The translations under genes were made by a program, and so were the position numbers. DNA of 64,000 nucleotides from Polyangiaceae bacterium (GTDB lineage Bacteria > Myxococcota_A > Polyangia > Polyangiales > Polyangiaceae), in the NCBI GenBank assembly GCA_025936045.1, contig JAICUB010000029.1:1-64000 (forward strand). Reading direction: 5' to 3'. Below the pieces are notes generated by a model. It searched no databases. It saw only the letters and a list, made by a program, of their open reading frames with translations, and was not told the DNA's origin. Within the stretch, counting starts at the first letter, position 1. Each line of letters starts with the position of its first letter. Shown in pieces: positions 1,630-26,438 of the stretch.

Positions 1630-2826
1630 ATGAGTGGTGAATACGGCGACGCGTTCCTCGACGGAATGCGCCTCAGGGGCGATCCGCCGGCGGATCGCGT
1701 GATCGAGGTCCTGATGGCGGGACACGAGGTGAACGAGGCGCGGGCTCTCTTGCGCACGCTGGTCGAAAATGATCAGCCGCCGCCCTCGGGGCTGCCGCCC
1801 GAGGTGACGAGCTACCTGCAAGCTTCGGCGAGCTTGGACGCCACCGCGGGGGAAACGCTCGTGAAGGGCCAGGACCTCTTCGCGGAGCACGGCGCGGTGA
1901 TGTTGCTCTGCCTCGGCTGCTACTCACTGCCGGCGTCATACGCCGCCGCCAAAGGCGTCGTCGTGCTGCATCGAACGGCGTACCTCGAGCGCCGTCCCGC
2001 GAAACGCCTGTTCGAGACGACCCAGATGGTCATCGACGTGATGACCCCCGGCGGACTCGGACCCGGCGGGCGTGGGGTGCGCACGGTGCAGAAGGTGCGG
2101 CTCATGCACGCCATGGTTCGCTACTTCTTGCAGAACGATGAAGCGCGGCCCTGGCCCGCCGAGCTCGGTGTGCCGATCAACCAGGAAGACCTCGCCGGCA
2201 CGCTGACGGCGTTCGTGTGGGGCACGCTCGACGGCCTCGCTAGGCTGGGCGTGACGCCGGCGCCGGACGCGCAGGAAGACTACCTCGCCGCCTGGCGCTG
2301 CGTCGGACGACTCATGGGCATCGAGCCCGCGCTCTTGCCGAAGAACATGGCCGAGGCCACGACGCTCCGGCAACGCATCGAGGAGCGCCAGGTGGCTCCG
2401 AGCGCGGAAGGTCGCGAGCTCACCCAAGCTTTGCTCGAAATGATGCAGGAAAATAGCGATTTTGCTCCGCTCAAACACGTGCCCGCCGTGCTGATGCGGC
2501 ACTTCTTACCCGAGCGCGTCGCCGATTTCCTCGCGGTCCCGCGCTATTCGGGCGAGCTCGCCGTCGAAGCACTCGAGCTCATCGAGGGCGCGGAGAACAA
2601 GCTCTTGCACGACCTGCCGGTGCTCACGCGTGTCGCGCGCTCGTTCAGCCTGCACTTTTTGAATTGGATGCTCAACGTCGAAACGGGAGGACGCAGTGCG
2701 CCGTTCGTGATCCCACTCGAGCTCCAACGCCGCTGGGGTCTCGCAAAGCCGGCATCCATCTGGCAGCGCTTGGCGGAGTGGTTCGGGCGGAGCCTGCGCG
2801 GCCTCTTCGGTGCGCGCGCGGCGTAG
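1630..2826 (+). CDS. Oxygenase MpaB / latex-clearing-protein family (DUF2236), haem-dependent
   Basis: A 398-aa protein of the DUF2236 family, whose characterised members are b-type haem oxygenases that cleave isoprenoid chains: rubber oxygenase Lcp and fungal MpaB, which cuts the farnesyl side chain of a mycophenolic acid intermediate. Visible residues are R126, T130 and H160 (in RLFETTQM and KVRLMHAMVRYF). Their spacing of +4 and +34 equals that of Arg164, Thr168 and the haem-ligand His198 of Lcp from strain K30. The Lcp catalytic Glu148 position is a Val here, so the chemistry may differ from Lcp. The C-terminal part has the usual PINQEDLAGTLTAFVWG segment. The ATG at 1630 is preferred over the GTG at 1624 because GGAGG lies 8 nt before it. 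The stop is 6 nt from a membrane terpene cyclase, so the two are probably co-transcribed. Substrate unknown. Confidence 0.88.
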   Translation: MSGEYGDAFLDGMRLRGDPPADRVIEVLMAGHEVNEARALLRTLVENDQPPPSGLPPEVTSYLQASASLDATAGETLVKGQDLFAEHGAVMLLCLGCYSLPASYAAAKGVVVLHRTAYLERRPAKRLFETTQMVIDVMTPGGLGPGGRGVRTVQKVRLMHAMVRYFLQNDEARPWPAELGVPINQEDLAGTLTAFVWGTLDGLARLGVTPAPDAQEDYLAAWRCVGRLMGIEPALLPKNMAEATTLRQRIEERQVAPSAEGRELTQALLEMMQENSDFAPLKHVPAVLMRHFLPERVADFLAVPRYSGELAVEALELIEGAENKLLHDLPVLTRVARSFSLHFLNWMLNVETGGRSAPFVIPLELQRRWGLAKPASIWQRLAEWFGRSLRGLFGARAA

Positions 2827-2832
2827 GCGGCC

Positions 2833-3531
2833 ATGCATCCGATTTACCACGTCGACCCGGCGAACCCGGCCTTCGACCCGCTCACCTGGTATAACCTCGT
2901 GGGCGCGTTCGGCTGCGTGAACTGGATCCTGGCCTACGTCGCGATCCTGGTGCTCTGCTTTCGCGATCGAACGTATGGGCTGCCGCTCGTCGCCATTTGC
3001 CTGAACTTCGGCTGGGAGCTGCTCGCGTCGTTCGTGTTCCCCAATCCGGTCGCGCTCTGGCATTTTTTCGATCGCGCGTGGCTCGGCTTCGACGTCGTGC
3101 TCGTCTACCAACTCTTGCGCTGGGGCCGCGCCGAGCAATCCATCCCGGAAATCGCGCGCTTTTTCTACTTCGTGGTCGCGCTCACCTTCGGCGTCGGCGT
3201 GTGGGGACAGTACGCGTTCGTCGACTCCTACAGGGATCGCCTCGGGCTCGTCGGCGCCTTCGGCGTCAACCTGATCATGAGCATCCTCTTCGTCTTCTTC
3301 TACTTCGGGCGGCGAGCGAGCGGTCGCGGCTTATCGAAGGCCGGAGCCGTCTGCAAGCTGCTCGGAACGCTCGGTACCGCCGTCGAGTGCCACACCGTCG
3401 TGCGCTCGATCGACACGGGCCTGCAAGATCTGGCCTTTCTCACCTTTCTGACGGTGACGATCTTCGCGACGGACTGCCTTTACGTCTATCTCGTGTTCGC
3501 GAGGCCGGGCGCCGTCGTCGCCACGAAATGA
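2833..3531 (+). CDS. Membrane terpene cyclase, PaxB/Pyr4-like, about 7 TM helices
   Basis: A 232-aa polytopic protein with about seven hydrophobic helices, the size and topology of the transmembrane terpene cyclases (fungal Pyr4, PaxB; bacterial DmtA1-type). The family signature N-x-x-WE is present as LNFGWELL with Glu62, and a C-terminal FATDCLYVYLVF carries Asp214. These match, in place and almost in number, the essential Glu63 and Asp218 of Pyr4, which protonate the epoxide or alkene to start cyclisation. It follows the DUF2236 oxygenase by 6 nt, so oxidation and cyclisation of one isoprenoid is a reasonable inference. No prenyl synthase or prenyltransferase is adjacent. The last 46 bp overlap the 3' end of the convergent kinase gene. 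Confidence 0.82.
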   Translation: MHPIYHVDPANPAFDPLTWYNLVGAFGCVNWILAYVAILVLCFRDRTYGLPLVAICLNFGWELLASFVFPNPVALWHFFDRAWLGFDVVLVYQLLRWGRAEQSIPEIARFFYFVVALTFGVGVWGQYAFVDSYRDRLGLVGAFGVNLIMSILFVFFYFGRRASGRGLSKAGAVCKLLGTLGTAVECHTVVRSIDTGLQDLAFLTFLTVTIFATDCLYVYLVFARPGAVVATK

Positions 3532-6500
3532 AGCGGATCGACGACGCCGCGCGCTCGCAGAAACGCGTCCGCCTCGCGCACGAGCGCGCCGCCTTCGTCC
3601 CCTCCGAGTAGCTCGCCGAGCGCGCGACGCGCGCACATGTCGTAAGCGGGCAGCCGCTCGCGCGCGGCGTCGTCGGCGACGACGGCTCGCAGGAGCGCGA
3701 CGGCCCCGTCCGGTCGCCCGCGCAGGACCTCGACCGCGGCCTCGAGCGGCGCCGACCAAATCGCGGACACGGCGCTGATCGAGCGAAAAAATTCGAGCGA
3801 GGCGACGGCCGCGTCGAGTAGCTCCGCGCGCTCGGCGCCCGGCGCGAGCTCGCGCGCATGAGCGAGATCGGACCAGACACGCAGGTATCGAACGTACGCG
3901 CGGACGGGGGCGGCATGGCGTGCCAGTGATTTGGCGAGCTTCGCCTCGAGCCGAGCGACGCGCTCGCGCGCGTCGACGACGTCCCCGTGGTGGAGCGCGA
4001 GGGCGAGTGTGCCCTGGGTGAGCATGATGTCCTGCCAGGTGAAGTCGGGCTTGTTCCAGGCCTCGTGCGCTCGCGCGAGATCGCCACGCAACGACGCGAC
4101 GTCGCCGACCGCGATGCGCGCGATCGCGCCGGGGCCGCCCGCGACGAACGGAGCAACACCGCGATCGTCGCCCGCCCACACGTCGTCGAGCAACGCCGGA
4201 ACCTCGCGCGCAGCGTCGCGGAAATAGCCCTGCAGACACTTCACGTTGAGCAGGCTCCACGCGACGATCGGCGTCAGAAAGGAAATGCTCGGATGCGGGC
4301 GGCGCACGAGGATCTCGCGCGCGTGCTCGAAATGGACGAGCGCGGCGCGCGGATCGCGCTGCAGCTCGGCGTTACCCACGTTGAGCGCGAGCCAAAACCG
4401 CGCGCGCGGGTCGCCGTCGCGCTCGCAGCGCTCGCTCGCCGACACGACGAACTTCGCGAGCTCCCGCGCCGGCGTGCCGAGCAGCTGCGCGGTCCAAGCC
4501 TCGAACGCCATACCCTTGGCGACGAGCCCGGGGTCGCCCGAGTCGAGCGCGATGCGGTAGAGCTTGGTCGCGAGCGACGTGTAACGCAGAGGTTCCTGGC
4601 GCGGCAGCGCGAAGGCGATGGACTCCGCCGCCTCGAAGCGAAGCACGGCGCGCTCGTCGCGCGGACCCGCGCGCGGGGTATGCCCGCGCAGCTTCACGAG
4701 TGCTCGCTCCCAGCCGAGTCGCGCGAGCGCGCCGCGTTCGGTCAGTGGGATCTTGAGGCCCCAGGGCTCGAGCCCGCGATTGACGAGTGGGATCGCCTCT
4801 TCGATGAAGCCGCCTTGCAGGTAAAATCCGCCGGCCCGGCGCGCGAGATCGGTGGCCTCCTCCTTGCCCGCATGCTCCATGGCGGCGACGCACGCTTCGG
4901 CGGCTTCGCGGCTCCGGCCCGACAACGCGAGAGCGTCCGCGCGCGCCACGCGCAGTCGTCGCAAGGTCGCGGCGTCGAACTTGCCGAGCGAGAGCGCGCG
5001 ACCGAAGAGCTCCACCGCACGTTCGAAGCCGAAAAGCTCGCGGGCGCGCTCCGCGGCCTGCGCGGAAAGCTCGGCAGCACGCTGCAGATCCCCCGCGCCC
5101 TCGAAGTGCAGCGAGAGCTGCTCGGGATCGGGCACGTTGGTCGCCTCCCAGGCCCGCGCAAGCTCGCGATGAAGCAGTCGCGCCGCTTCCGGCGACAGTG
5201 ACGCCGCGAGCGTCTCGCGAATCTTGTCGTGGTAGCACTCGACTTCACCGGGGCGCGCACCCTGCCGCACGAGCTGACTCGCGCGCAGGGTGTCGAGCGT
5301 TCCGGGCTCCACGCCGGCCGCGTCGGTCACGACTTCGAGCGGCACCGACCCCGCGGAGAGCGCGATGGCCAAGAGCAGATGCTGGGCGTCCGCGGGCTCG
5401 GCACTGCAGCGTGAAAGCAGGATCTCGGAGAGCGACTTGCCCTTCGCTTCGGCGCCGCCGCGGGCGAGCTCCCGCAAGAGGAATGGGTTGCCGTGCGCCT
5501 CGAGCACCACGGCATGGGAGCTCTCGCTGCCGGCCAGCCGCAGGGAGAGCTCGCTCGGGAGCGGGCCGAGCCTGAGGCGCCGAAAATCGACGCGAATGTC
5601 TTGCTCGAGCTTCGCGTACAACGGCTCGAGCGGTTCGCACTCACCGTCCCTCCGGCTGCCGACGAACAGGAGCTCGGGCGCGTCACCCTGTCGTAGGAGA
5701 TGGAGGAGCAGCGTCATCGAATCGCCGTCCGTCCATTGCAGATCGTCGATGTAAAGCACGAGCGGCCCGCGAGCGCGCAGCTTGCCCAGCATCTCGCCGA
5801 AGCCGACGAAGCCGCGGCGGCGCACCTCGTGCGGATCGGCGCCCTCGAGCGCAGGAGCGAGCGCGAAGGTTCGCACGCGGCCGAGCGCGGGGAAGAGCCG
5901 CGTGAGCGACCAGGCGTCGCGCGGCGTGAGCGCCGCCTCCTGGTCGCGCGGAAGGCGCCGTAGGTAGCTCGAGAGAGCGTCGACGACCGCGTCGAACGCC
6001 TTGAACGGCACCGTCTCGCGTTCGTAGCAGCGCCCGTGCAACACGACGGCGGACGTGCTCCGCCTGAGCTCGTCCGCGAAGCGGGTCAAGAGCGTACTTT
6101 TCCCGATGCCGCTCTCGCCTTCGAGCATCAGGATCACCGGCTTGCCGCGTTGGAGCGACGCGCGGTAAGCGTCTCGCAAAGTCTCGAGCTCCGCGTCACG
6201 CCCCAAGAGCTCTCGCTCGAGCTCGGGTTGAAAGCTCGCGAAGCGGCGCGGCGGCAGCGTGGCGCCGCCGAGCCTGCTGGCGAGCGCGTCGGCGTCGGGA
6301 CGCCGGCGCGGCTCCCGGGCCAGGAGCTCGATGCAGAGCGCGTTCAGATCTTCGGGCACGCCGGGCACGAGCGCGGAAGGCGCCGCTGCGTCACGGTCCT
6401 GTTTTGCCAGCAACACTTCGGCGACGCTGCCCTCGAAAGGAAGGCGCCCGGTGAGCGATTCGAAGAGCAGCACACCGAGCGCGTACCAGTCGCTGGCAGG

Positions 6501-7220
6501 GCTCGATTCCCGGCCGGCGGCTTGTTCGGGAGCCATGTAGCTCGGCGTGCCGACCAGATCCTCGAGCATCGCCTGACCCGGTGCGCCGAACTCCGGATCG
6601 GACACGAGGCCGAAGTCGAGCACGACGACGCGCCCGTCGTGCCGCACCATCACGTTGGTCGGTTTGAGGTCGCGGTGCAGCTTGCCGATTCGATGAATCT
6701 CCCCGACTGCGGCGACGAGCTCGGAGAGCGCTTGGCGGAGGCTCGTGACCCAGAACTGGTCCCCGCGGCCCGGCCTCGAGCGGGCGGCTCGCATCGTCTC
6801 GAGCCAGTCGTCGAAGCATTCGCCCACGACGAGATCCATCGTGAAAAACCAGAGCTCGCCCTCCGCGAAGAGCTCGTGCAAGCGGACGAGGTTCGGGTGA
6901 CTCACGTCTGCGAGCGCACGAAATTCGTTCTTGAGGCGGTAGACGCCGGCGGCCTCGAAACGATTGAGGGTCTTGAGCGCGACCTTGCCGCGGCGCTCGG
7001 CGTCGTACGCCTCGTACACGACGCCCATGCCGCCTTCGCCGAGAAGGTCCAGGATTTCGAAACGCCCTTCCGCGAGCAGGGTTCCTGGTCGGAGCGCCGC
7101 TCCGTGCAGCGGCGGCGCCGCGCTCGACTCGCCATCGACCTGTCTCGAGAACGAGGCGCTGCTCGAGTCGGCTCGGCCGAGCTTCACCGTCGTCGATAGG
7201 CGCCTTTCGTCTCGCGGCAA
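3486..7220 (-). CDS. Ser/Thr protein kinase with AAA ATPase and TPR-like region (PknK-like)
   Basis: A 1244-aa cytosolic signalling protein. Residues 53-320 form a complete Hanks-type kinase: Gly-loop GEGGMG (61-66), VALK with Lys83, HRDLKPTN (182-189), DFG (202-204) and APE (230-232). All catalytic residues are present. An AAA_16-type ATPase follows, with Walker A GESGIGKST (368-376) and Walker B YIDDLQWTD. The remaining roughly 700 residues are helical and Ala/Leu/Arg-rich, like the TPR arrays of myxobacterial PknK-like kinases. The ATG at 7220 is supported by the conserved kinase entry starting 50 residues later. The 3' end overlaps the terpene cyclase gene tail to tail. Targets cannot be inferred. 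Confidence 0.95.
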   Translation of the reverse strand: MPRDERRLSTTVKLGRADSSSASFSRQVDGESSAAPPLHGAALRPGTLLAEGRFEILDLLGEGGMGVVYEAYDAERRGKVALKTLNRFEAAGVYRLKNEFRALADVSHPNLVRLHELFAEGELWFFTMDLVVGECFDDWLETMRAARSRPGRGDQFWVTSLRQALSELVAAVGEIHRIGKLHRDLKPTNVMVRHDGRVVVLDFGLVSDPEFGAPGQAMLEDLVGTPSYMAPEQAAGRESSPASDWYALGVLLFESLTGRLPFEGSVAEVLLAKQDRDAAAPSALVPGVPEDLNALCIELLAREPRRRPDADALASRLGGATLPPRRFASFQPELERELLGRDAELETLRDAYRASLQRGKPVILMLEGESGIGKSTLLTRFADELRRSTSAVVLHGRCYERETVPFKAFDAVVDALSSYLRRLPRDQEAALTPRDAWSLTRLFPALGRVRTFALAPALEGADPHEVRRRGFVGFGEMLGKLRARGPLVLYIDDLQWTDGDSMTLLLHLLRQGDAPELLFVGSRRDGECEPLEPLYAKLEQDIRVDFRRLRLGPLPSELSLRLAGSESSHAVVLEAHGNPFLLRELARGGAEAKGKSLSEILLSRCSAEPADAQHLLLAIALSAGSVPLEVVTDAAGVEPGTLDTLRASQLVRQGARPGEVECYHDKIRETLAASLSPEAARLLHRELARAWEATNVPDPEQLSLHFEGAGDLQRAAELSAQAAERARELFGFERAVELFGRALSLGKFDAATLRRLRVARADALALSGRSREAAEACVAAMEHAGKEEATDLARRAGGFYLQGGFIEEAIPLVNRGLEPWGLKIPLTERGALARLGWERALVKLRGHTPRAGPRDERAVLRFEAAESIAFALPRQEPLRYTSLATKLYRIALDSGDPGLVAKGMAFEAWTAQLLGTPARELAKFVVSASERCERDGDPRARFWLALNVGNAELQRDPRAALVHFEHAREILVRRPHPSISFLTPIVAWSLLNVKCLQGYFRDAAREVPALLDDVWAGDDRGVAPFVAGGPGAIARIAVGDVASLRGDLARAHEAWNKPDFTWQDIMLTQGTLALALHHGDVVDARERVARLEAKLAKSLARHAAPVRAYVRYLRVWSDLAHARELAPGAERAELLDAAVASLEFFRSISAVSAIWSAPLEAAVEVLRGRPDGAVALLRAVVADDAARERLPAYDMCARRALGELLGGDEGGALVREADAFLRARGVVDPLHFVATTAPGLANTR

Positions 7221-24503: not shown

Positions 24504-25415
24504 CTACTGCGCGGCCTGTCCGAGTGCGACCGGACGAGCGCTCGCCAGCCGCTGAGCGGTCTTCACGCGCCGCTCCGTGACCATTGCGTACGCCACGCCG
24601 AGCCCCACGGCGAGTGGCCCCACGATCGCGAGGTGAAGATTCGTCGCGCCGACGAGCTTCAGGCCCGACACCAAGAGCACGACCACGAGCGACGGACGAA
24701 TCACGTGATCGGGAGCGCGCGAGGAGAAGCGCGCGCCGAAGAACACGCCGGGAACGCTGCCGATCAGGATCGAAGCCGTGAGGCTCAGCTTGAAGTCGCC
24801 GAAGAACAGGTGCCCGAGCGCCGCGCTCGTCACGAGCGGAACCGCCTGCACGAGGTCGGTGCCGACGAGCTCGGACAGCTTGAGCCGCGGGTAGAACATG
24901 AGCAGCAAAATGATCATCAGCGAGCCCGAGCCGACGGAGGTGAGACCGACCACGAGACCACCGAGGATGCCGATGATCAGCGTGGGCAGCGGCTTCACGA
25001 CGAGCGGCAGGACGCCCTCCCCCGCCTTCTTCCGCGCGGCGAGCAGCGGCTTGATGACGAGACCCGCCGTCACGGAGAGGAGCGCGATACCGAGCGCGAG
25101 CTTCACGTTCGACTGCAGCGCGGCGCCCGAGCCGAACCGGCGCAACAGGAGCACGCCGAGAAACGCGGACGGAATCGAACCGAGCGCGAGCCATTTCACG
25201 AGCCCCCAGTTCACCGTGCCGCGCTTCCAGTGCACGCCGCCGCCGACAGGCTTCATCACCATGGACGCGACGATGTCGCTCGACACCGCCGTGAGCGGTT
25301 CGATACCGAACAAGAGAACCAGGATCGGCGTCATGAGCGCGCCGCCACCCATGCCGGTGAGGCCCACGACGAAACCGACGAACGCGCCTGCGAGGGTGAC
25401 GAGCGGGTCGAACAT
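24504..25415 (-). CDS. TauE/SafE family sulfite/organosulfur exporter (copy 1)
   Basis: A 303-aa inner-membrane protein with about eight to nine helices. It has the TauE/SafE repeat start GAFVGFVVGLTGMGGGALMTP and its second-half counterpart GGLVVGLTSVGSGSLMIILLL. Family members move sulfite, sulfoacetate or related anions out of the cell. It is a close paralogue of the next gene upstream (long identical blocks such as HWKRGTVNWGLVKWLALGSI), diverging mainly at the C-terminus. An AT-rich box shared with that gene lies about 20 bp before the ATG. Confidence 0.9.
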   Translation of the reverse strand: MFDPLVTLAGAFVGFVVGLTGMGGGALMTPILVLLFGIEPLTAVSSDIVASMVMKPVGGGVHWKRGTVNWGLVKWLALGSIPSAFLGVLLLRRFGSGAALQSNVKLALGIALLSVTAGLVIKPLLAARKKAGEGVLPLVVKPLPTLIIGILGGLVVGLTSVGSGSLMIILLLMFYPRLKLSELVGTDLVQAVPLVTSAALGHLFFGDFKLSLTASILIGSVPGVFFGARFSSRAPDHVIRPSLVVVLLVSGLKLVGATNLHLAIVGPLAVGLGVAYAMVTERRVKTAQRLASARPVALGQAAQ

Positions 25416-25493: not shown

Positions 25494-26438
25494 TCAGGAG
25501 GCTTCGCTGCTGGGCGCCGTCATCCGGGGAGCCGGGGACGGCGCGGTCGGCGCGATCGGCGCGATCGAGGCGGAGGCGAGCGCACCGGCGAGCCGCCGGT
25601 GGGTGACGAAGGCGTAGGCCGCGCCGAGCAGCGCAACGGGCGGCGCGACGATGGCGAGCATCGCGTCGGGGAGGCCCAAGAGCTTCACGCCCGAGATGAA
25701 GAGCACGACGACGAGCGCCGGGCGAATCACGTGATCCGGCGCGCGCGACGACAAACGGGCACCGAAGAAGACCCCGGGAACGCTGCCGATCAGGATCGAA
25801 GCCGTCAGGCCGAGCTTGAAGTTGCCGAACAGGAGATGGCCGAGCGCAGCGCTCGTCACGAGCGGCACGGCCTGCACGAGATCGGTCCCGACGAGCTCGG
25901 AGAGCTTGAGCCGCGGATACAAGACGAGGAGCAGAATGATCATGAGCGAGCCCGAGCCGACCGAGGTGAGCCCGACGATGAGTCCGCCGAAAATCCCGAT
26001 GAATAGCGTCGGCAACGGGCGCACGACCACCGGCAGGAGGCTCTCGCCCGGACGCTTGCGCACGAGCAACGGCCGCACGACGAGCGCGACCGAAACGATG
26101 AGCAGCACCACGCCGAGCGCGAGCTTCACGTGCGACTCGAGCTCGGCACCGGCTCCGAGCTTGCGCAGCAGCAGCACGCCGAGAAACGCGGACGGGATCG
26201 AGCCGAGCGCGAGCCACTTCACGAGCCCCCAGTTCACCGTGCCGCGCTTCCAGTGCACGCCGCCGCCGATGGGACGCATGATCATGGCCGCAACCACGTC
26301 GCTCGAAACGGCAGCGAGCGGTTGCACGCCGAAGAGGAGCACGAGGATCGGCGTCATCAGGGCGCCGCCGCCCATGCCGGTCAGTCCCACGACGAAACCG
26401 ACGAAGGCTCCGGCGACGATGACGAGCGGATCGAGCAT
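25494..26438 (-). CDS. TauE/SafE family sulfite/organosulfur exporter (copy 2)
   Basis: A 314-aa paralogue of the 24504-25415 product, with the same two GxGG/GSGS half-repeats (GLTGMGGGALMTP, GLTSVGSGSLMI). The shared central region is almost unbroken, which indicates a tandem duplication. The Ala/Pro/Ser-rich C-terminal tail is unique to this copy. The two copies are separated by 78 bp that contain a separate regulatory box, so each is probably transcribed on its own. Confidence 0.9.
   Translation of the reverse strand: MLDPLVIVAGAFVGFVVGLTGMGGGALMTPILVLLFGVQPLAAVSSDVVAAMIMRPIGGGVHWKRGTVNWGLVKWLALGSIPSAFLGVLLLRKLGAGAELESHVKLALGVVLLIVSVALVVRPLLVRKRPGESLLPVVVRPLPTLFIGIFGGLIVGLTSVGSGSLMIILLLVLYPRLKLSELVGTDLVQAVPLVTSAALGHLLFGNFKLGLTASILIGSVPGVFFGARLSSRAPDHVIRPALVVVLFISGVKLLGLPDAMLAIVAPPVALLGAAYAFVTHRRLAGALASASIAPIAPTAPSPAPRMTAPSSEAS

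Follow-up and report, generated by a model that had tools for sequence, protein, structure and literature searches.

Two genes lying side by side, which look like an oxygenase and a cyclase gene, were found near the start of a 64,000-nt stretch of DNA from a Polyangiaceae bacterium (the whole stretch is called the window here), and the recurrence of related pairs in other bacteria suggests that bacteria have a ring-forming terpenoid route not yet described. The first gene encodes a haem-oxygenase-like protein of the MPAB_Lcp family (DUF2236) and the second a Pyr4-like transmembrane terpene cyclase. The window comprises bases 1-64000 of an 89,682-bp contig (JAICUB010000029.1, assembly GCA_025936045.1) from a genome of 6.37 Mb that is 86.6% complete, and because it begins at contig base 1, just 1.6 kb is visible upstream of the pair. 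The initial annotation had placed the two genes at 1630-2826 and 2833-3531; the coordinates and the strand (+ for both) of the open reading frames (ORFs) agree, with 6 bp from stop to start. The observation of the pair is therefore confirmed, and the interpretation given to it is partly supported. The main features are:

1630..2826, + strand: MPAB_Lcp_cat (DUF2236) haem-oxygenase-like protein, 398 aa; ATG start, with an alternative in-frame GTG at 1624
2005..2019, + strand: codons of R126 (2005-2007) and T130 (2017-2019), aligned with R164 and T168 of LcpK30
2107..2109, + strand: codon of H160; its LcpK30 counterpart in the alignment is H198, the proximal haem ligand
2833..3531, + strand: Pyr4-like transmembrane terpene cyclase, seven-helix, 232 aa
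3016..3018, + strand: codon of E62, putative general acid in helix 2
3472..3474, + strand: codon of D214, putative second acid in helix 7

In the whole genome, PF09995 (MPAB_Lcp_cat) and PF25129 (Pyr4-TMTC) each found a single match, the pair's own genes, and no NCBIfam family scored above its cut-off for the 398-aa or the 232-aa protein. Judged from the comparisons below, the pair is real and recurrent, and probably co-functional. On balance, we favour the reading that the two genes form a co-functioning terpenoid-tailoring pair, in which the oxygenase acts first and ring closure by the cyclase follows. With O2, the oxygenase would act on a prenyl chain, epoxidising or cleaving one of its C=C bonds, after which the cyclase carboxylate E62, with D214, would protonate the oxidised or remaining alkene, leading to ring closure. 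The oxygenase would then take the place of the FAD monooxygenases or P450s, which are the priming enzymes of the Pyr4 pathways characterised so far, and the prenylated substrate would probably be made elsewhere in the genome. We infer both the order, oxygenase before cyclase, and the common substrate.

Recurrence of the gene pair

The search for PF25129 covered 97 genomes around that of the window (own genome included; 6 match) and 377 genomes of the phylum (own genome again included; 21 match), which combined gave 34 loci in 25 genomes, one locus being below the family cut-off. As the phylum-wide searches scored no more than a handful of top candidates in each genome (at most 7 for PF25129, 4 for the oxygenase and 2 for the squalene-hopene-cyclase type), their counts are lower bounds. 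Matches to PF09995 were present in 19 of the 25 genomes, with one to six in each, in genomes of 3-16 Mb. A complete oxygenase gene directly adjoins the Pyr4 gene at 10 of the 34 loci, in nine of the 25 genomes: that of the window (G000), G016 with two loci, G068, G180, G208, G285, G299, G351 and G365. A profile scan of named genomes yielded 23 loci, of which six duplicate records of the first set, and added adjacent pairs in Myxococcales HKST-UBA11 (L101) and in one planctomycete (L107), while in Corallococcus llansteffanensis (L099) a single gene lies between the oxygenase and the cyclase. Together with the 10 adjacent loci, these three make up the 13 pair loci referred to below. At the other 14 of the 23 named-genome loci no oxygenase was found within the fetched stretch. 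The initial annotation had left open that the pair might not be conserved elsewhere; the 10 loci, the additional myxobacterial locus and the planctomycete locus show that it is.

The commonest arrangement is the oxygenase followed by the cyclase on one strand (window, both G016 loci, G068, G180, G285, G299, L101 and L107); the genes are convergent in G351 and G365, divergent in G208 and split in L099. Beside the divergent pair of G208, a further ORF (L083:4828-6948, +) carries cyclic-nucleotide-binding, FAD and [2Fe-2S] BFD-like domains and could be an electron donor. Some loci were difficult to assign. In G396 both genes are present 2.3 kb apart, and this genome is outside the count of 10 pairs, yet labelled as paired on both trees. 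The two Pyr4 pieces of G366 are located at the ends of other contigs and were counted as unpaired. In G189 (L084:10060-11577, +), about 120 N-terminal oxygenase residues lie beside Pyr4 and are followed by unrelated sequence, reflecting a broken gene or an assembly join; this locus is also outside the 10 pairs, although the Pyr4 tree carries it with the paired label.

Both trees bear on the possibility that the two genes are chance neighbours in a gene-rich chromosome, a reading that the unpaired state of most Pyr4 and most DUF2236 genes would fit. By our estimate, the number of the 34 loci with direct adjacency by chance would be well under one (about 0.02-0.05), compared with the 10 observed. 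The labels also cluster: 5 changes suffice for the Pyr4-associated label on the 40-row oxygenase tree (11.6 when shuffled) and 6 for the oxygenase label on the 48-row Pyr4 tree (13.0 when shuffled), with 0 of 500 shuffles as low in either case. These labels are slightly wider than the 13 pair loci, as they include L084 and L085 on the Pyr4 tree and L061 (the L085 locus) on the oxygenase tree; the fragmentary G027:C1:11876248 and both G366 rows were dropped from the former, and the short L084 piece from the latter. Chance adjacency is thus very improbable and, as far as sequence allows, is refuted.

The window's oxygenase clusters with the G351 and G365 oxygenases (98/94), and the cyclases of the window and of G351/G365 are in different starred groups (100/97 and 100/99, respectively). 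Because gene orders and strands differ and the trees disagree on the nearest relatives of the window's genes, the pair seems to have been assembled or re-partnered more than once, and partner exchange or repeated assembly is the best account, though the few rows are no proof.

The two proteins

The assignment of the 398-aa protein as a DUF2236 oxygenase holds, with PF09995 scoring it at 94.6 bits (cut-off 23) as the only Pfam family matched; the same family was matched by all 10 aligned oxygenase members, including that of the window. The protein was found to have the Lcp fold, and R126, T130 and H160, noted in the initial annotation for their Lcp spacing, align as listed above with the three LcpK30 residues and are invariant in 13/13 aligned rows (window row included). 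It can be considered a putative b-type haem oxygenase that would use O2; the co-functional pair as a whole is a reading that we find somewhat more credible than the other readings taken together. Related MPAB_Lcp oxygenases can carry a C-terminal extension, with a DUF2515 match in one case (L089:8386-10656, -) and a TerB domain in another (L091:2666-4687, -).

For the 232-aa protein, PF25129 gave 69.9 bits (cut-off 27) and was again the only Pfam family matched. The predicted model has seven long helices (residues 19-45, 52-68, 74-97, 111-133, 139-159, 169-193 and 201-222) with a mean pLDDT of 91.7, membrane insertion not being itself part of the prediction. The seven-helix cyclase assignment is consistent with both results. 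Placement in another seven-transmembrane family had been considered in the initial annotation; the profile search gave none, and all 20 aligned members (window included) matched PF25129 at E 0.001 or better, one of them also matching PelG at E 1.2e-4. Relatives among the genome contigs were detected by profile scan, and none was found when the cyclase was used as a single query. Glu62 and Asp214 are present as described, E62 being identical in 48/48 bacterial Pyr4-like rows and D214 in 42/48 (a gap accounts for one of the six exceptions). These may be the Pyr4 E63 and D218 positions, the rows compared being bacterial.

The 232-aa protein could alternatively be a PQ-loop/SWEET-like carrier or a sensor of the oxygenase product, with the acidic residues serving transport. 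Given the profile matches, we regard this as improbable; among the literature matches listed for a KDELR/SWEET-like fold linked to Pyr4, there was no mention of Pyr4.

Other partners of the cyclase and the oxygenase

The proposal that the oxygenase takes the place of a flavin enzyme draws its main support from loci where Pyr4 has a different neighbour. Directly after Pyr4 there is a FAD_binding_3 protein in L110 (Gammaproteobacteria) and L108 (Gemmatimonadales), and in L106 (Acidobacteria) such a protein lies one gene away. A weaker FAD match (32 bits) is 2.6 kb from Pyr4 in L109. FAD_binding_3-type matches were absent from the 13 pair loci, for which the fetched lengths differ (the shortest 3.7 kb). 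A flavin enzyme of this type in three loci of other phyla and no such match in the pair loci would be expected if the oxygenase stands in the flavin enzyme's place, the numbers being small.

Another layout recurs in these and other lineages, consisting of an AAA-type giant, a protein of about 320 aa and a Pyr4-like cyclase (L106:372-8477, L110:598-7759 and L021:4750-11556). A FAD monooxygenase is also present in L106 and L110, and the co-linear giant of L099 carries a Guanylate_cyc domain. The ~320-aa protein had no Pfam match above cut-off, and by eye its aspartate-rich motifs resemble those of isoprenoid enzymes of class I.

An unrelated cyclase type, the squalene-hopene cyclase (SHC), is also partnered by relatives of the oxygenase, which is an addition to the initial annotation. 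In three Myxococcota genomes (G081, G076 and G156), an SHC-type cyclase is followed by the oxygenase in one open frame (997, 1322 and 1061 aa, respectively):

L087:7590-10580, + strand: SHC-type and MPAB_Lcp single frame
L094:6385-10350, + strand: SHC-type and MPAB_Lcp single frame
L141: SHC-type and MPAB_Lcp single frame, 876 aa of the 1061-aa frame seen

The G081 and G076 fusions share 36% over 1,023 aligned residues, and the DXDD-like motifs of the SHC-type domains are DCDT, DADD and DNDD. Separate SHC genes adjoin the oxygenase in G257 and G379, the latter split over two frames in the assembly. The association is therefore present in at least five of the 377 sampled genomes (at least three fusions and two adjacent genes), these being minimum counts as the SHC search scored two candidates per genome. 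In the NCBIfam search the SHC part of G081 scored 219.9 bits, with 431.1 needed for hopene cyclase; by that measure it does not qualify as a standard hopene synthase. The four rows with an SHC label are unclustered on the oxygenase tree (4 changes; shuffled mean 3.9). Long ORFs at L088, L090 and L093 were also considered as fusions and were excluded, as their N-terminal halves resemble antisense noise with no Pfam match.

The position of the cyclase domain, N-terminal to the oxygenase in all three fusions, would suit the reverse order of reactions, in which ring closure by the Pyr4-type enzyme comes first and a double bond that remains is afterwards cleaved or oxidised by the MpaB/Lcp-type enzyme, in the way that MpaB trims farnesyl, although domain order is not reaction order. 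MpaB cleaves the terminal double bond of a phthalide that is already prenylated (PMC12724181). Against this, oxidation precedes the Pyr4-type step in the onoceroid (PMC11109268) and zigralone (PMC13307353) pathways, and the oxygenase is the first gene in the window. We consider the reverse order unlikely.

Substrate supply

The initial annotation had noted that no prenyltransferase lies nearby, and no UbiA-type prenyltransferase was found on the 89.7-kb contig. No prenyltransferase or prenyl synthase domain was detected among the window's gene calls (13 of 46 scanned), prenyl diphosphate synthases not having been searched genome-wide. The genome carries four UbiA proteins on four other contigs, three of which were identified with NCBIfam as haem O synthase, MenA and decaprenyl-phosphate phosphoribosyltransferase, with the fourth below every cut-off. 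As a guess, the substrate might be a menaquinone-pathway intermediate or the product of this fourth UbiA protein. A squalene or carotenoid substrate, which the SHC fusions could suggest, is opposed in this organism, as neither PF00494 (squalene/phytoene synthase) nor PF13243 (SHC) had a match in the 86.6% complete genome; with no squalene/phytoene synthase found, squalene and carotenoid substrates are unlikely. The absence of these genes is not firm, with about 13% of the genome possibly missing.

A putative signalling neighbour

The gene following the pair in the window is a large one on the opposite strand:

3486..7220, - strand: Ser/Thr kinase-AAA_16 ATPase giant, 1244 aa (Pkinase 139.5 bits, AAA_16 89 bits); convergent, a likely regulator

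A kinase-AAA_16 or Guanylate_cyc-AAA_16 giant is located beside or between the pair in six of the 13 loci (window, G068, G180, G285, G299 and L099), and in L101 a fragment of a homologue, truncated where the contig ends, is about 2.3 kb from the pair. Where convergent, the giant overlaps the end of the cyclase gene by 46 nt (window), 41 nt (G068), 23 nt (G180) and 51 nt (G285). A homologue is also found upstream of the G081 SHC fusion. The window giant has 98 matches in its own genome, of which six (itself included) clearly span the AAA region, approximately one per Mb; with this background, taken from one genome, the position beside the pair is unlikely to be due to chance. Its similarity to the giants of G068, G180, G285 and G299 is around 35-37% over some 250-260 residues, the kinase part, and it is not a full-length orthologue of them. 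The adjacent giant probably controls the timing of the pair's action.

Combining the two kinds of cyclase partner with this neighbour, a tentative and rather doubtful extension would be that the MpaB/Lcp haem oxygenases of Myxococcota are a terpene-tailoring lineage joined at least twice to unrelated proton-initiated cyclases (Pyr4-like membrane proteins and, through fusion, SHC-type domains), where they would oxidise isoprenoid chains so as to start or finish ring formation; with the giant this would be a signal-controlled module that makes a small terpenoid from a housekeeping prenyl pool, for instance menaquinone precursors.

Elsewhere in the window, two adjoining genes on the - strand (24504-25415 and 25494-26438) have near-identical N-termini, the first with a TauE/SafE match, in an apparent tandem duplication.

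Points against, and comparison with rubber oxygenases

Several results weigh against a co-functional pair. No complete oxygenase gene directly adjoins Pyr4 at 24 of the 34 loci, and among 30 fetched best-match oxygenase loci (up to 1.5 kb per side) seven had Pyr4 and four SHC, most having no cyclase. Some match to the window oxygenase was present in at least 105 of the 377 genomes, and most of these relatives are unpaired. In Ga0077550, whose Pyr4 is the closest relative (64% identity), the oxygenase is on a different contig, and no Pyr4 match was found in the seven same-genus genomes, giving a patchy distribution. A substrate-making gene was not seen near the pair. The contrast between flavin and haem partners is based on three loci; in L106 a 2OG-Fe(II)-oxygenase-like gene lies between Pyr4 and the flavin enzyme, the lack of a match to the window oxygenase in the L106, L108 and L110 genomes comes from a single-protein query and not the whole family, and in G208 a FAD_binding_6 and [2Fe-2S] flavoprotein adjoins the Pyr4 of a pair. 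The last of these points concerns the active site. In LcpK30 the distal haem ligand is Lys167, a residue conserved in just 59% of Lcps (PMC5522427); it is E129 here and Glu, Gln or Asp in 13/13 rows, and two alignments place L113 or K108 at the position of Glu148, with no Glu in either column and a displaced acid being possible. With Lys167 replaced and no Glu aligned with Glu148, rubber-oxygenase chemistry need not carry over.

The active-site differences also affect another explanation, namely breakdown or detoxification of rubber-like, quinone or carotenoid chains by the pair. Among solved structures, LcpK30 (PDB 5o1l/5o1m) comes closest to the 398-aa protein, and many DUF2236 proteins are supposed rubber oxygenases (PMC6311187). 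However, LcpK30 is extracellular (PMC5522427), whereas no hydrophobic N-terminus was visible by eye in the 398-aa translation, the distal lysine of Lcp is replaced, and a cyclase partner, which distinguishes the pair here from LcpK30, would make little sense for breakdown. We therefore give breakdown of polyisoprenoids little weight.

Relation to known systems

Bacterial Pyr4-like cyclases are largely unexplored according to a 2026 survey, in which 264 of 1107 candidates were retained for having terpenoid genes nearby (PMC13307353). A term search of its whole main text returned no MpaB, DUF2236 or Myxococc, and our literature search (open-licence papers; titles and abstract starts) found no paper on Pyr4 with DUF2236, the related matches being fungal, rubber or a general review. 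The cyclases XiaH, TylF, GroF and ZigF described in that survey are the same PF25129-type compact membrane protein, with an acidic residue proposed as the Brønsted acid. In those systems, P450s or flavin enzymes prime the chain (PMC13307353); in contrast, the neighbours in the window are an oxygenase of the MpaB/Lcp type and a kinase giant, and the contig carries no UbiA prenyltransferase.

The analogy with fungal meroterpenoid pathways made in the initial annotation is loose. In mycophenolic acid biosynthesis the substrate of MpaB is a farnesyl chain bound to a polyketide (PMC12724181), whereas no polyketide synthase domain was detected among the gene calls of the window (13 of 46 scanned). 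A Pyr4-type cyclase is likewise accompanied by an oxygenase in the fungal onoceroid clusters, which contain HomoS (SHC-like), HomoM (a flavin monooxygenase) and HomoB (Pyr4-family) and which start from squalene, so that no aromatic prenyltransferase is needed (PMC11109268). There the oxygenase is a flavin enzyme and not the haem type found here, and the window genome had no match to SHC or squalene/phytoene synthase. Other bacterial oxygenases of the MpaB family available for comparison are Nro1 and the trans-anethole oxygenase (8s1j).

A survey limited to cyclases with recognised terpenoid neighbours could overlook pairs of this kind. If the co-functional reading is true, haem oxygenases of the MpaB/Lcp type would be added to the partners of Pyr4-like cyclases, beside flavin enzymes and P450s, and the SHC fusions would provide single polypeptides in which an oxygenase and a cyclase can be tested together.
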